Assembly (NCBI RefSeq): GCF_014838715.1 | Contig: NZ_CP061947.1 | Coordinates: 2,728,001-2,792,000 of the forward strand | Length of the DNA stretch: 64,000 nucleotides | Direction: 5' to 3' | Origin: Algoriphagus sp. Y33 | Lineage (GTDB): Bacteria > Bacteroidota > Bacteroidia > Cytophagales > Cyclobacteriaceae | In this document: positions 43,200 through 48,992 of the stretch, one piece after another | Numbering within the stretch: position 1 is the first letter of the stretch | Layout of the letters: every line of letters begins with the position of its first letter | Made by a program: the position numbers and the translations under genes | Notes under the pieces: generated by a model | Databases searched by the model: none | What the model was told of the DNA's origin: nothing | The model's input: only the letters and a program-made list of their open reading frames with translations

Positions 43200-46100
43200 C
43201 TAGGAGACAAGATCCAGTTTCTTTATTAATTCTGTGATTTTCGTTTTTACAGGGTTCAATTTCTCTCTATCTATATGCCCTAGAATTGAACTCAACAAAT
43301 TGAGATGTTCCAGCTCCGCTACTTTACGGCTTTTTTGAACTGTTTTATTCCAAAGCACACCATACGCTTCTTGTACTTTATCGGGATCAAAAGTTGAACT
43401 CTCGATTAAATAGGATGTTAAAGCCATCCTGGCAACGGGTAAAATGAGCGCATATCCATCAAAACCGATTACATCTTTACCGTAATTTTCATACAACTTA
43501 CCCAAAGAAACAATTGCCGCTTTTTGACTTTTAGACAGGTAAGTTTTTCCCTCCAGCCAGCGCTTCATCTGAAGCAATCCAAGCCACTTGGTCAGCACCA
43601 ATGGATCCGAATTATTACTTCTTTCACTGGCTAGTTGATAAGAACTCACTGCATTCTCCAGAGAATCAAGGTCTGGAAGTTTGCTAGCCAAGGATAGCTG
43701 CAGTTTACTTTCATAAGCACTCCCCAGCAGAGAAAGACGTTCGACGGTTTCACCAAGTAGCCTGTTCATATCCTGCAGATCTTTGACCACCTCATCCAGC
43801 TTATTTTGGGCAGGCATCAGATCCAATTTTCCCAGAAGGAATTCATGTACGCAATGTCTTATCCGAAGATTGCAGTATTGCTCAAATGCGCTGATGGAGT
43901 AGGCAGATTTTTCTGATTCAAACAGTTTCTGATAGCTCGCGCATGCCTTTTCAAAATATTGCAATCCTCCATAAATCCCTGCTATCAATTCAAGAATGCG
44001 GCAATTGCTTCTCGCTTTCTCTTCCGAGATCTTCTGAATAACTTCTACCCTTCCACTGACATAATCGAAATCAAATTCATTGGCAGACATCATTTCACGA
44101 ATGTTATCCAGCTCTATCTCTATTTCCTCGATACTGAGATCAGCATCCTCATAAGATCCTTTCCCTATATCGGTGAGTTTGTAATACGGGTCTCCATAAC
44201 ATTGGAAAGCTCCCCATGTGTTGGTCTTTTTTCCAGACGTTCTATAAATCGTGTTTCTGGCCCGTTTCACAGCTTCTCCAAAGCCAAAACCTGAGAACAT
44301 ATTTTTATAAAATTCTCTGGAAAATTCCAAAGCAGCCGCATCATCCACTGCCCAGCCGGCCACAACCACGGCTCTTGCACCGTTATTGATAAGTTGAGTT
44401 CCAATATTCGCTGCAAACTTATTACTCTGCTGACTCACAAGCTCAGCGGCATTGTCCATCTGCCCCAGATAGCAACAATTCACAAAAATCAATTCTGCAG
44501 AAGAACTCATTCCTGCGATTTGTCCGGGAGTCAGGAAAGTATTGCTGCCGATCACCATGCCTGTAGCCTTGTTAGCCCCATGCCTGAATACCCCATGTCC
44601 GGCAAGGTGAATTATTTTATGGTTTCCGGAAAACATGGCCAAAATAATATCCGTCGCACTGGAGTTAATCAGACTGACTACCTGATAATCTTCTCCTCTA
44701 AGTAAATTCTCCACAGCCAATGCTTCTTGTTTTGCTCCGGGCAATTGAGGCATGTATTCTTCCAACATAGGATCTCCTATTATCAAAGCGGTGCTTTCAG
44801 TGACTTTGGCAATTTCCCCTCTGGAGTCACCGGTAGCCAGCTGCCTAACCATACCTATGTTAACGCATAGCGGATCAGAATTCACACTATCCAACAGCAT
44901 CTCCCAAGGATATGCCGCGGAGGAAATATCCAAGACCCAATTGATATTATTCAGGCGCTTGATCTCTTCTTTGAACCGGAAAGGAATCAATAACTCAAAC
45001 ATCGCTGTGGCAATTTCCGGAGAGAACTGATTATTGACTGTCATTTGCCGAAGAAGTATATCCAAAGTCCTGTCACTTGAAGGAATTGTTTCCACTTTCT
45101 CACTGGCTCCTGTGGTGGTAATAGACATGCGGATCAGTTCAATAGTCTCTTCTTCTGCATAGTCAATACGCTGAGTAACATTGATTCTAGTCCACCAATC
45201 GGATGAAAAATCAAACGGAACCCTTTTAAGTTTACCCAAACAATATCTCAACCCGTTTCCTTGGAAATGGATATTAAAATCCTTCTGGCTATCCGAATTC
45301 AGACGCTGGATAGTTTTCAATATAGAAAGTGCCCGGTCATTGTAGATTTCAATGATTTCTATTTCCTGGATTCCCCGGATCGCCCCCTCGTAAGTGAGCT
45401 GTACCTTTCTATTAGCACGTTGCACTCCTGCAATGATAGCCCGAATAGAGTTATCTGTAGAAAGCCCACCATAATTATTGGCTATTGCAATGACAGAAAT
45501 ACCATTAAGTAAAAACTCCCCATGGGAAGCTGTTCCCGATCCATTCTCTTTTTTGATGGTCAGGTAGCGTGCGACTCCTTTTTCCACCGAATTGATCAGA
45601 TAATAACCGGACAACTCACCCTGTACACCCAAGCCTACAATAATCCCTCCCTTGAAGGATGAATTAGAGTTTGATTCATTCAGCACAATCTGGTTGGAGC
45701 CTATCTTGCCCGGATACAATCCAAGCGAATACAATCTGCTCAATTCTCCTCCCAATTGTCTGTCTATGGCAGCCTCGGCATTCAAAATAACATCTTGCTC
45801 AAAATGCCCTGCCAGCACCGGATATTTGGCATATTTCAAATCCCCATGAGTCACCACCACGCTGATAGGTGTTTCGTTATGCCATACTTCCTCCTGTTCA
45901 TCAATTCCCAAAAGCGTAGTGAGCAGATTTTCCTCACTGATATCGAAGATTTCAACCTCTACCGGTTCAAATTCCTTCTCATCTCCCCGAGTTTTGGGTA
46001 GACTGTTTTGCAGCCTCTTCGTACTTCCATAGATCAGCAATTCTTCCATTGCGGTGAAGAGATCCTTTTCCTTGGACAGGCTTCCATGGGTGACATTGGC

Positions 46101-48587
46101 ATAATATACCTGATTCCGGTCCTCCATCGTTTTCGGAATACCTGATGCCCAGGTCACACTTTCATCACCCTGATTGGTTGCATAGAAAACCAGTTCTCCA
46201 TTCTCTATTTCCATGTTGGAAATGGTAAAGCTTTTTTTCCCACTTTGTCCTGCGATATAAGTGAAATTTGAAAAATCAATGGATCTGAAACCATCCCATA
46301 TTCTTTGTCGATGAGAACCGAATTCCTCCAGTATTTCTTTAGAAGGAATTGGCCAATCCTCATCGCCAAAGGCCGTTCTCATTCTCTCCCAGAGTTTCCT
46401 GTCTGCGAAATCATACTTGCCCCCATTATCAATAGGAAGCAAATTCAAAATACCCGGGAAATTGCAGAAAATCTGTAGCAATTCCTTCGTAGAGTGCTTG
46501 ATGTCAATTTTTCCCAGCAGTTTTATAATACTGTCTTTACCGAAAAGCACATACGGAATCCGGAAAGACCCCCCCAAAGGAGATCCCAAAAAGATACCGC
46601 GGAAACCAACTGATTTATTCAGCTTTTGCCAGGTGGTATCATGATACACCATAAAATCCCGTACCAAAACTCCCCCCATGCTATGTGCCACGATTTTGAT
46701 GGGTTGGTTTTTGGCCAAAAGCTTCCGAATCTTCATCTCAAAAGTTGCTGCCGCATCTTTCAAAGGTTTTCTCCAATCAAAATAAAAGGTCACTACATCA
46801 TAGGTACCGGAAAGTCTTTCACCCAAATTTTTATAAGAAGTTTTGATCAACGAAAGGGCGGATAATTTGTCATCGGTCTCTGGGGCGAGTTCCAATTCCG
46901 CCAATTTTCCTTTGAAAAACCCTAAGTAGTTTATCCACACCAGCTCCTCCGACTTCTCCGGCCCCCCCGGTGCTTGCTTGCCAATATTCGAACCCATTAT
47001 TCCCGGAATTAGAATCAGGATAGGCTTCTTGCCGCTGACATTATCTTCCACATAAGTTCCATGTTCGATACCGATAATTCCACGTTTCTTGGATTTGCTA
47101 CGCAAAGTAAATAAAGCAGGAATTGTGTTTGGGTTGGCAGACAACCCGGCTATGACAGCGTTTAAAGTATCTTCATTCGAAAAATATTTGAAGTGATCAA
47201 TTTTACCACTTTGCTCAATGTAAATCCCTACTTGGTCTGAATCTCGACGTGCCCCCCACTTCATACTTTCGGTGTCAACTACCAGATCATTTTTTCCCCT
47301 AAAGAAAATCTTGCCCAGTATCACCACAAGTGTCTTAAAACTTACACTCAATTCGGCACTTCCAGCTACTACAAGCAGGGGAAATTTAATTTCTATCTCT
47401 GATCCTTGATTATTTAGAGTCTTGATGAAAGGCGACTTAGGATTCATAGCTTCCAAACCCGGCAACACGTTTACATCATCTTTGCAGGCCACAGCCTCCA
47501 TGATGAATTCTTTGAAAGCAACATAAATCGGATTTCCCACATGCCCGACCGCCAAACCGATCAAATTAAACGTGACGTTCAAATAAAAATTCAATCGGCT
47601 AGATGCCAACGTTGTGCCGTTTGCCGGACCGGCTACACGTACCATTGATCTGACTGTAATTTTTTTCTTCTCTACTTCGGTTCTTATCTGTGTAATTACT
47701 TCCAAATCACGATCCCGTCCGGATTTTAGTAAAAGAGCCTTTTCGGTAGCATCAAAACCTGTGGGATTAGCGCAAAACCTTACAAGAAGTTCAGCCAAAA
47801 GCCCACCTCTTGATTGGCTTAAAAGATCCAATTCAATGTTTGCCGGCAGGCTTTTTACCAGATCCAAAATATTTTCCAGAGGACTTGCTGTCAGAGATCT
47901 ATGCTGGAAAGCCAGAATATTCCCTTCCTTATATTTATTCGTACTGCTTGCTTCATCAAAAAGATCTTTCCATTTATCCGACTCCTTCAGATCGCCAAAG
48001 GACTTCTGGGTGGATGACGCTGTCCCGTGCAGTAAAAGTAAATAGGGAGAGTCAACCGGGATTTTGGCAACTGAGGATTCATCGCATTCCAGCGGGCTTA
48101 GCTCTATATTTGTAGAGCACTTTGCCAAAACCCCAAACTTTACATCCTTGTAGGGCTCACCTGGAAAAGCCAACTGTTTATTTTCAAGATTGGCGGCCAT
48201 GTCCCGCATTTTGGGCTGAATGATCTTTTTCTTGACAAAAAATTTGACCAACTTAATGGCAACTTTCTTAAAAATCCCCCTATCCTGTTGATCCGACTCC
48301 AGTTCATCAGGAAGGTAAAGTTCATCGCCCGCTTCAGATCTTTTTAATTTCTTGGGAAAAAGTATGCGAAGGGACTCGTTATCTCCAAGCCAGACGGTAT
48401 TGTCTTCAAACTCAAATTCGATGACAGTCAAGTCATCAACTTCAATGGTTTGCTCAGGCACGTCTCCCCGAGTTGGACTCACTACAGTATAAGCCTTGTT
48501 CAGCTGATACAGATCAAACCCCCGATCCTCTCCGGAAACAAAGGGTAAATGATCCTGTCCCTTAAGTTTGATTTTTAAAATAGCCAT
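43200..48587 (-). CDS. giant CHAT-domain protein with two lipase-like domains and helical repeats
   Basis: 1795 residues, one frame, no signal peptide. Order seen: N-terminal ~1-170 of unknown fold; hydrolase-like domain 1 (LLLLHGT at H187, nucleophile elbow SQSRGG with Ser259); hydrolase-like domain 2 in LCAT style (ILILIPGIMGSN near 528, AHSMGG with Ser636); a region at ~905-1020 (VLAGHFEQDVILNAEAA..., LGLYPGKIG) recalling the macro-like N-domain of cytosol aminopeptidases; CHAT peptidase at ~1262-1472, with His1331 in HLAGHG and Cys1372 in NCCYLG, so the caspase-type dyad is intact; and a helical, TPR-like end (~1480-1795). It would be cytosolic. CHAT proteins are caspase-like peptidases, many of them in immune systems. 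No partner gene is directly adjacent. Confidence 0.88.
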   Translation of the reverse strand: MAILKIKLKGQDHLPFVSGEDRGFDLYQLNKAYTVVSPTRGDVPEQTIEVDDLTVIEFEFEDNTVWLGDNESLRILFPKKLKRSEAGDELYLPDELESDQQDRGIFKKVAIKLVKFFVKKKIIQPKMRDMAANLENKQLAFPGEPYKDVKFGVLAKCSTNIELSPLECDESSVAKIPVDSPYLLLLHGTASSTQKSFGDLKESDKWKDLFDEASSTNKYKEGNILAFQHRSLTASPLENILDLVKSLPANIELDLLSQSRGGLLAELLVRFCANPTGFDATEKALLLKSGRDRDLEVITQIRTEVEKKKITVRSMVRVAGPANGTTLASSRLNFYLNVTFNLIGLAVGHVGNPIYVAFKEFIMEAVACKDDVNVLPGLEAMNPKSPFIKTLNNQGSEIEIKFPLLVVAGSAELSVSFKTLVVILGKIFFRGKNDLVVDTESMKWGARRDSDQVGIYIEQSGKIDHFKYFSNEDTLNAVIAGLSANPNTIPALFTLRSKSKKRGIIGIEHGTYVEDNVSGKKPILILIPGIMGSNIGKQAPGGPEKSEELVWINYLGFFKGKLAELELAPETDDKLSALSLIKTSYKNLGERLSGTYDVVTFYFDWRKPLKDAAATFEMKIRKLLAKNQPIKIVAHSMGGVLVRDFMVYHDTTWQKLNKSVGFRGIFLGSPLGGSFRIPYVLFGKDSIIKLLGKIDIKHSTKELLQIFCNFPGILNLLPIDNGGKYDFADRKLWERMRTAFGDEDWPIPSKEILEEFGSHRQRIWDGFRSIDFSNFTYIAGQSGKKSFTISNMEIENGELVFYATNQGDESVTWASGIPKTMEDRNQVYYANVTHGSLSKEKDLFTAMEELLIYGSTKRLQNSLPKTRGDEKEFEPVEVEIFDISEENLLTTLLGIDEQEEVWHNETPISVVVTHGDLKYAKYPVLAGHFEQDVILNAEAAIDRQLGGELSRLYSLGLYPGKIGSNQIVLNESNSNSSFKGGIIVGLGVQGELSGYYLINSVEKGVARYLTIKKENGSGTASHGEFLLNGISVIAIANNYGGLSTDNSIRAIIAGVQRANRKVQLTYEGAIRGIQEIEIIEIYNDRALSILKTIQRLNSDSQKDFNIHFQGNGLRYCLGKLKRVPFDFSSDWWTRINVTQRIDYAEEETIELIRMSITTTGASEKVETIPSSDRTLDILLRQMTVNNQFSPEIATAMFELLIPFRFKEEIKRLNNINWVLDISSAAYPWEMLLDSVNSDPLCVNIGMVRQLATGDSRGEIAKVTESTALIIGDPMLEEYMPQLPGAKQEALAVENLLRGEDYQVVSLINSSATDIILAMFSGNHKIIHLAGHGVFRHGANKATGMVIGSNTFLTPGQIAGMSSSAELIFVNCCYLGQMDNAAELVSQQSNKFAANIGTQLINNGARAVVVAGWAVDDAAALEFSREFYKNMFSGFGFGEAVKRARNTIYRTSGKKTNTWGAFQCYGDPYYKLTDIGKGSYEDADLSIEEIEIELDNIREMMSANEFDFDYVSGRVEVIQKISEEKARSNCRILELIAGIYGGLQYFEKACASYQKLFESEKSAYSISAFEQYCNLRIRHCVHEFLLGKLDLMPAQNKLDEVVKDLQDMNRLLGETVERLSLLGSAYESKLQLSLASKLPDLDSLENAVSSYQLASERSNNSDPLVLTKWLGLLQMKRWLEGKTYLSKSQKAAIVSLGKLYENYGKDVIGFDGYALILPVARMALTSYLIESSTFDPDKVQEAYGVLWNKTVQKSRKVAELEHLNLLSSILGHIDREKLNPVKTKITELIKKLDLVS

Positions 48588-48992
48588 AGGTAAAAATTAA
48601 GAGATTAACACTAAAATTTCCTTTCAACAATGGAAGTCAACACTTGGCAAATAATTGGCTTAATTAGGATGCAAAAGATGAAAAAATCATCTTGGTATTC
48701 TCAGAAACGGATTGAGAACCGGAGAAAATATTCATCCCTGCTCAATCTGGAAACTCTATACAAATAAGGACTTAATGTAGAAAAAAAATCATAAACATCA
48801 TAAAATCTGACACATAGACATTAATTAATGATAGTTGAAATCCTACGTTGATTCTCCCTTTCAAAAGTTCAACTTACAGCCCTGCCTTTTCGGGTTAAAA
48901 CTATTGCTGTTATAAATGAAAATAGCACCGGAAATAAACCCCGGTGCTAGTAAAATATCAGTCCTATGCAAGAGTCTGCTTAAAGCAGCCTG
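48588..48992. other. 405-bp intergenic region between the tricorn-like and CHAT genes
   Basis: Contains the terminator of the tricorn-like gene (48923-48949) and must hold the promoter of the CHAT gene, which was not placed. No repeat was recognised. Confidence 0.5.
48919..48949 (-). terminator. intrinsic terminator after the tricorn-like protease gene
   Basis: TAGCACCGG and CCGGTGCTA pair around a 9-base loop, with TTTTC following on the minus strand. Confidence 0.85.

Follow-up and report, generated by a model that had tools for sequence, protein, structure and literature searches.

In the genome of Algoriphagus sp. Y33, a gene on the minus strand of the 64,000-nucleotide stretch analysed here (contig NZ_CP061947.1, positions 2,728,001 to 2,792,000; the whole stretch is hereafter called the window) encodes a protein of 1795 residues that joins two predicted lipases, a macro-type fold, a caspase-type CHAT domain and a helical tail of the TPR-S type in a single chain. 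The catalytic residues of the three putative enzymes and arginines at the domain junctions are conserved among the relatives of the protein, and TIR genes are enriched near those relatives. In this study, we propose, with confidence a little short of even, that the protein is a cytosolic one-chain effector of cell death (cell lysis) that processes itself.

In the resting state, both lipases would be held in the chain together with their own regulator. The macro domain and the TPR-S tail would sense a signal, most likely an ADP-ribose or NAD-derived ligand or a partner protein, and switch on the CHAT protease, which would cut after the conserved arginines at the junctions, R103, R502 and R867 and perhaps R40. 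These cuts would free hydrolase 1 (about residues 104-502) and the phospholipase-like hydrolase 2 (about residues 503-867), which would then remove acyl chains from membrane lipids and so arrest or lyse the cell, possibly in phage defence or under another stress. A more specific form of the proposal, a Bacteroidota zymogen with its own sensor, an Arg-specific CHAT protease, a macro/TPR-S gate for an NAD signal and two lipases released by three to four junction cuts, is a tentative possibility and a rather doubtful one.

Domain order and conserved catalytic residues

The open reading frame reported in the first-pass annotation at 43200-48587 is real and encodes 1795 residues; it lies on the minus strand, which had been left unstated. 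A genome search found one copy of the two-lipase CHAT gene in the 6.38-Mb Y33 genome. The features of the gene, from the N- to the C-terminus of the protein, are as follows.

43200..48587, minus: whole gene, a single open reading frame of 1795 amino acids with an ATG start (open reading frame listing)
48288..48587, minus: N-terminal beta-rich domain, residues 1-100 (secondary structure of the model)
47118..48140, minus: alpha/beta-hydrolase 1 (DUF7379), about residues 150-490, predicted triad S259-D434-H465 (Pfam, alignment, model)
46008..47045, minus: alpha/beta-hydrolase 2 of the LCAT/group XV phospholipase A2 type, about residues 515-860 (Pfam, alignment, Foldseek, profile)
45318..45875, minus: macro-fold domain, about residues 905-1090 (Foldseek)
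44190..45014, minus: CHAT caspase-type peptidase domain, residues 1192-1466, H1331/C1372 (Pfam, Foldseek, alignment)
43203..44135, minus: helical C-terminal tail with a TPR-S stretch at residues 1545-1659, the least conserved part (Pfam, model)

The protein was modelled with AlphaFold2 as residues 1-1110 (60 alignment rows; mean predicted local distance difference test score, pLDDT, 84.7; predicted template modelling score, pTM, 0.75) and residues 875-1795 (57 rows; 81.2 and 0.62), from alignments of the window protein and its relatives. The two lipase-like domains read earlier from the sequence are alpha/beta-hydrolase folds by structure model, Foldseek, Pfam and profile search, with complete triads whose Asp and His were assigned from motif and fold order without superposition. 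Hydrolase 1 matches DUF7379 (PF24096) at residues 183-270 with 105.9 bits against a Pfam cut-off of 33, shows the order strand-S259-helix in the structure model and matches the putative lipase PDB 7x2p by profile (E 2.5e-6). Hydrolase 2 carries the oxyanion motif PGIMGS and the triad S636-D808-H834; it matches LCAT in Pfam at residues 598-722 (30.4 bits, cut-off 21) and, by profile against the PDB, group XV phospholipase A2 (E 5.6e-9) and LCAT (E 1.7e-8). In the Foldseek search of the PDB with model 1-1110, human LCAT (6mvd, E 1.8e-6) came first, the PARP14 macrodomain second and Geobacillus lipases soon after. By profile and fold, hydrolase 2 is closest to enzymes acting on phospholipids. The N-terminal domain (residues 1-100) had no match in the Pfam scan, and no signal peptide was evident at the N-terminus when read by eye.

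The macro-like region noted earlier between the lipase and CHAT domains is a macro-type fold in the Foldseek results of both models, with target TM scores of 0.60 for PARP14 macro 1, 0.63 for AF1521, 0.66 for DarG and 0.69 for macroH2A1.1; leucine aminopeptidases are also among the matches. The Foldseek lists give no aligned range of model residues, and the macro matches are placed at 905-1090 because they were found for both models, which overlap at 875-1110. Pfam offered only Peptidase_M17_N for this stretch (E 0.14). In the alignment of 88 rows, which comprises the window protein, 80 kept loci and seven more from the genus search, G915 is found in 82 rows, D916 in 83, Y1039 in 76, G1040 in 85 and G1041 in 75, and the NAAN-type motif of macrodomains is replaced by (A/V)GHF. 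The motifs HGDL (914-917) and YGG (1039-1041) resemble the ligand loops of macrodomains.

The CHAT domain is intact, as the first-pass annotation had it: the Pfam match at residues 1192-1466 reaches 98 bits against a cut-off of 24, and the dyad is complete in 88 of 88 rows. The motifs SQSRGG (Ser259) and AHSMGG (Ser636), His1331 and Cys1372 are all found at the residues given there, and the helical C-terminus it described is a helical tail whose TPR-S (PF20308) match at residues 1545-1659 scores 27.1 bits in the window protein, slightly below the cut-off of 27.6. With model 875-1795, the first Foldseek match was Csx29 (8eex, the TPR-CHAT protein of Craspase); macrodomains, leucine aminopeptidases, SAVED-CHAT and separase also reached E <=0.001. 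A profile of the second half matched mainly helical-repeat proteins in the PDB, with one SAVED-CHAT chain at E 1.5, so the link between this CHAT domain and Csx29 rests on fold comparison. The NCBIfam scan of the protein gave only HetF, at 12.7 bits against a cut-off of 1200, and the single-sequence search of the PDB only MALT1, at E 0.93.

In the 88 rows, S636, D808 and H834 are unbroken, as are H1331 and C1372, and the CHAT dyad is thereby conserved in the homologues. S259 is kept in 86 of 86, D434 in 87 of 87 and H465 in 87 of 87 rows that cover the site, and H187 is likewise unbroken; the rows that do not cover the hydrolase 1 triad sites are L085 and L091, at contig ends. Since triads and dyad are kept in all covering rows, the three enzymes look jointly under selection, and both predicted lipases and the CHAT protease are presumed, from sequence, to be active. 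In a set of 26 sequences (the window protein and 25 diverse homologues), DUF7379, LCAT and CHAT match all 26 and TPR-S 24 (E 0.001).

A scan of named genomes gave 198 pattern hits and 135 confirmed relatives, of which 80, all from Bacteroidota, were kept. The kept loci consist of one open reading frame of 1737-1880 residues, save for contig-end cases, L060 (1924) and L107 (2214). Within the genus, 24 of 58 other genomes carry the gene, 23 of them at full length and one ended by the contig; in the 38 order-level relatives of the same search, matches were confined to the CHAT or TPR region or were absent. An evenly drawn survey of the phylum found the gene in five of 395 genomes at E 1e-60, the Y33 genome included. 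The four survey homologues have the full set of eight catalytic residues; L112 and L113 share 79% and 91% identity with rows already in the alignment, L114 and L115 only 35-39%. Judged by these alignments, the one-chain architecture recurs in Bacteroidota, patchily. No relative of the protein was found in two scans of viral contigs, and none of the PADLOC models matched it (0 families at E 1).

Three further proteins may be recorded here. The 2214-residue frame of L107 (9875-16429, Flavobacteriaceae) has an extra C-terminal stretch that by eye resembles a trypsin-type serine peptidase (PGDSGAA motif); a fusion with a peptidoglycan-binding partner was considered and rejected, as the extra part has no such match. 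In another protein of the phylum (L121:1-2286), a Peptidase_C14 caspase domain is fused to a DUF7379 hydrolase, which makes it a further type of caspase-lipase fusion. In the Y33 genome, outside the window, further CHAT matches lie at C1:2631625-2632467, C1:6333554-6334345 and C1:6336671-6337543 (L116-L118), one in a frame of 1036 residues and two each in a frame of 2081 residues (probably one frame); the scanned parts of L116 and L117 hold TPRs and CHAT and no lipase match.

Conserved arginines at the domain junctions

The four candidate processing sites are the following.

48468..48470, minus: R40, an Arg that is invariant although its loop in the N-domain is poorly conserved; a weaker candidate processing site (alignment)
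48279..48281, minus: R103, an invariant Arg where the N-domain meets hydrolase 1; candidate site (D/E/N)-R-(G/S/N) (alignment, model)
47082..47084, minus: R502, invariant Arg in the linker between the hydrolases, the best candidate processing site (alignment, model)
45987..45989, minus: R867, an almost invariant Arg where hydrolase 2 meets the macro domain; candidate processing site (alignment, model)

Each is surrounded by poorly conserved sequence. R40 is an isolated conserved column (86 of 86 covering rows). R103 is likewise kept in all 86 covering rows, and its ten-residue block has a mean pLDDT of 64; the residue after it is G in 71, S in 9 and N in 5 of the 88 rows, and the one before it D in 31, E in 22 and N in 20. 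R502 (87 of 87 covering rows) lies where pLDDT falls below 50, at residues 498-507, and is followed by G in 57, N in 21 and A in 8 of the 88 rows and preceded by D in 33 and E in 31. Of the 88 rows, 82 have R867 and one has an ambiguous residue there; the next residue is G in 64 and S in 12, and the mean pLDDT of its block is 69. The five rows with a determined residue other than Arg at this position are L075, L077, L088, L094 and L100, all near a TIR or SLOG gene; in the last four an Arg stands a few residues beyond the 867 position, which may be alignment noise.

Proteases of clan CD often cut after Arg. In separase, D2151 reads the P1 Arg, and the TPR-CHAT protein of Craspase has K670 at that position, 43 residues after its C627 (PMC9729208). 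In the present protein, offsets of 43 and 44 after C1372 fall on D1415 and D1416; D1416 is kept in 88 of 88 rows, and the 1415 position is D in 60 and N in 24. By this offset argument, which is not a superposition, D1416 or D1415 is a candidate reader of a P1 Arg. The conserved junction arginines and an Asp at the reader offset together lead us to predict Arg-specific self-cleavage at R103, R502 and R867, by which both hydrolases would be freed from the macro-CHAT-TPR part. The idea of the first-pass annotation that the CHAT unit frees the lipases thereby gains conserved arginines at the domain junctions, while the cleavage itself is still only a prediction.

TIR genes and the surroundings of the gene

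Distances between TIR genes and relatives of the gene were determined in 51 carrier genomes outside Algoriphagus, in sets of 47 and 4, the latter chosen after TIR genes had been noticed in three of the four; L051, L055, L061, L059, L091 and the Algoriphagus loci, including L050, were left out. Matches were placed manually by contig coordinates, and six-frame translations of the loci served as a check. The 51 genomes hold 132 TIR_2 matches at E 0.001, and in ten of them a match lies <=10 kb from the gene (L060, L066, L070, L075, L077, L079, L083, L089, L094 and L100). Random placement would give 0.50 (chance of >=9, ~7e-10), and the set of 47 alone has seven against 0.44 expected (chance of >=6, 3e-6), figures to be read with the clustering of TIR genes and the relatedness of the carriers, the ten falling in about seven parts of the tree. 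A separately built TIR profile gave 15 hits in ten of 80 loci, namely nine of these loci, without L060, plus L061. The enrichment fits gating by an NAD-derived signal.

The neighbours of the relatives are varied. The gene next to L050 is of the CAP12-type TIR kind and that next to L079 an LRR-Roc-TIR gene; L083 has TIR-STAND upstream and LRR-Roc-TIR two genes downstream, and L100 has a TIR-TPR gene with further TIR genes nearby. Neighbours of L088 and L070 encode SLOG and SLOG-SLATT proteins, respectively, and TIR-like matches below the Pfam cut-off were found at L060, L066 (at +1) and L092. The next open reading frame downstream, on either strand, matches PG_binding_1 in nine and Amidase_2 in two of 74 cases; a CHAP gene adjoins L051, and L074 has an amidase neighbour. 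In the amidase and CHAP lineages, membrane damage by the lipases could give a cytosolic wall hydrolase access to its target. A PG_binding_1 protein of 405-411 residues stands at +1 in one clade of Flavobacteriaceae (L095, L097-L099, L101, L104, L105 and L109), and in L097 and L095 it carries a motif, HW.G.G..NFSAGCQV, reminiscent of L,D-transpeptidases. An eCIS_core protein (L062:8135-9646) adjoins a Hymenobacter homologue. An AAA ATPase gene and a gene for a 1206-residue protein that has a receiver-like domain (L058:5261-9979) lie directly upstream of the Chitinophaga homologue and may belong to a ternary system of the MoxR type.

Lineages differ in the gene found downstream, and several of them have a same-strand gene that starts within 50 nucleotides. 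Clustering of 832 neighbours returned mainly genus-level synteny, with TIR and SLOG genes scattered, and a conserved operon partner is rejected. The earlier statement that no partner lies beside the gene is right for the window, where the gene stands alone, and fails as a general rule; nor can 'self-contained' stand as a general description, a TIR, SLOG or peptidoglycan-type gene adjoining the gene in several other lineages. A defence-island setting, which the first-pass annotation had suggested looking for, is rejected for the window and for Algoriphagus, with their housekeeping neighbours; the relatives L066, L077, L083 and L100 do lie among several TIR genes.

The neighbours of the gene in the window are a convergent GNAT gene and a tricorn-like protease gene, the latter label being taken from Pfam matches of that gene's relatives. 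One transcription feature lies upstream.

48923..48949, minus: terminator-like stem-loop between the tricorn-like protease gene and the start of the gene

Terminator-like sites are weak evidence here, since the region has seven of them and shuffled sequence 5.3 on average; the stem-loop is consistent with separate transcription of the gene. A scan for consensus promoters gave 12 sites, where shuffled sequence had an average of 12.9, and the exact Bacteroidetes-type -7 box is absent from the 405 bases upstream, which hold two loose matches. Close intact copies of the GNAT gene (75-100% identity) occur in 13 of 69 genus genomes and lie <=2 kb from the gene in ten of these (G000, G028, G039, G042, G040, G052, G017, G009, G019 and G021); the remaining three (G540, G542 and G543) were outside the search for the present gene. 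A broken GNAT relative (75-79% identity) lies at G043:C1:1336847-1337372, and the homologue of the present gene in that genome is on another contig (C3).

Competing explanations and known systems

Several observations weigh against a self-cleaving effector gated by an NAD-derived signal. Other blocks of the models have equally low pLDDT and no conserved Arg, and 23 of 27 isolated conserved columns are residues other than Arg; with R40 inside the N-domain, the arginines may therefore be structural. Arg occupies four of 27 isolated and nine of 225 other conserved columns (64 diverse rows; Fisher p 0.04, a modest value, with 'isolated' defined after the sites were seen), an excess that is suggestive, not strong. 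Arg fills 15 of 16 cells at the four sites in the survey homologues L112-L115, but a real test is provided by L114 and L115 alone because L112 and L113 are near rows already used; L115 has Pro at the 867 position, and in L112 and L114 alignment gaps close to R502 left the placing of the Arg to the aligner. TIR matches of L060 and L070 are below the Pfam cut-off, the other eight of the ten being above it, and the neighbour control is weak, with TIR_2 in seven of 151 proteins at +/-1 against at most two of 125 at +/-5. A TIR partner in cis is not general, because 41 of the 51 carrier genomes have no TIR_2 match <=10 kb from the gene and the TIR_2 search of the Y33 genome gave no match; in Y33 an NAD-derived signal would therefore have to come from another source, or the trigger be another one. 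In Foldseek the macro fold is also like an aminopeptidase N-domain, and we know of no ADP-ribose binding by that domain. A FastTree phylogeny of 80 rows (the window protein and 79 loci) has 11 changes of family label, against a minimum of 9 and a shuffled mean of 40, with L088 and L100 as long branches of unsure placement, and inheritance thus appears mostly vertical; in Algoriphagus the neighbours are housekeeping genes, and elsewhere in the genus the gene occupies other sites. Mostly vertical inheritance and such neighbours set the gene apart from most phage-defence genes.

The same observations can be read in other ways. CHAT may cut another protein in trans, with the lipases working alongside it or processing a lipidated peptide, the chain serving as a scaffold and the arginines being structural; we regard this as unlikely, if a serious contender. 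Known CHAT proteases do act in trans, for example Craspase on Csx30 and a TPR-CHAT protein on gasdermin (PMC9729208), pairs of caspase and alpha/beta-hydrolase occur in separate genes (PMC7159879), Csx29 is the best Foldseek match of the C-terminal model, and in several lineages a same-strand gene follows closely. However, these downstream genes vary by lineage, with no constant partner and none in the window, and conserved Arg at three junctions would be left unexplained.

An improbable alternative is that the protein is not a killer and serves as a ligand-controlled enzyme of lipid remodelling or envelope stress, in which CHAT tunes two hydrolases of lipid repair or turnover. In favour of such a role are its mostly vertical inheritance, the housekeeping genes around it, the 24 of 58 other Algoriphagus genomes that carry it and the peptidoglycan-binding or amidase genes beside some relatives; yet a caspase-type protease, TPR-S and TIR or SLOG neighbours are typical of conflict systems (PMC7159879), and a gene found in only five of 395 phylum genomes is unlike one for a housekeeping enzyme. 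We give hardly any weight to an effector delivered into rival cells by type VI secretion or an extracellular contractile system, to which the eCIS_core protein beside L062 and the amidase and CHAP neighbours of L074 and L051 might point: the eCIS link is a single locus, no secretion signal or adaptor domain was seen by eye or in Pfam, and the chain is 1795 residues long with regulator-type domains of its own.

The self-processing effector that we favour would be assembled from parts that are each known already, and what would be new is their combination on one chain. Hydrolase 2 resembles the LCAT/group XV phospholipase A2 family in sequence profile, triad and fold; the known members are secreted or lysosomal single enzymes. 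TPR-S and TIR systems were reportedly treated by Burroughs and Aravind in 2020, and the present architecture may be in the tables of that TPR-S paper. Such systems share with it the TPR-S domain and, in several lineages, TIR or SLOG neighbours, whereas the effector part here is a double-lipase CHAT chain and the Y33 genome has no TIR_2 match. Among the matches listed in a literature search of titles and the starts of abstracts, there was no paper on a two-lipase-macro-CHAT-TPR-S chain.

Craspase TPR-CHAT (Csx29) and SAVED-CHAT share with the present protein the CHAT fold, the His/Cys dyad and helical repeats. TPR-CHAT of Craspase is a separate subunit that is activated by non-self RNA and cuts Csx30 (PMC9729208), whereas CHAT is here fused to two lipases, the helical tail follows it, and the offset comparison puts Asp instead of Lys at the position of the P1 reader. 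No Cas7-11 (gRAMP) or Csx30 was recognised by eye among the open reading frames at 36-56 kb of the window, where no CRISPR-specific search was made. In the VMAP/MoxR-vWA ternary systems, the caspase-superfamily domain is always accompanied by an alpha/beta-hydrolase, according to PMC7159879, which proposes a pairing of the two; there the hydrolase is a neighbouring gene, and here two hydrolases and CHAT are fused. The caspase-DUF7379 fusion L121 fits that pairing. Neither MoxR nor vWA genes were recognised by eye among the open reading frames at 36-56 kb, with no family search made, and the loci of the relatives showed no recognisable MoxR-vWA pair, save for the AAA gene two genes upstream in L058. 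Hachiman and AVAST nuclease-protease pairs offer a further likeness, a protease opening a gated pro-effector at conserved residues; they consist of a trypsin-like protease and a nuclease on two chains (PMC12799240), unlike the present protein.

No gasdermin was recognised by eye among the open reading frames near the gene, where no gasdermin search was run. The bacterial gasdermin systems are alike in principle, in that a caspase-type protease unleashes a membrane-damaging effector (PMC9729208); they differ in that the effector here would be two lipase-type enzymes, not a pore, on the same chain as the protease. The bacterial cases of protease-unleashed effectors taken from PMC9729208 and PMC12799240 use separate chains. 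Protease-unleashed death effectors tie bacterial immunity to caspases and gasdermins. If the proposal is true, the protein would be a compact system, with two lipase-type executioners, in which activation by proteolysis in cis could be tested, and it might show what the TPR-S and macro modules gate; such a zymogen would combine the roles of caspase and gasdermin in cis, the lipases standing in for the pore.

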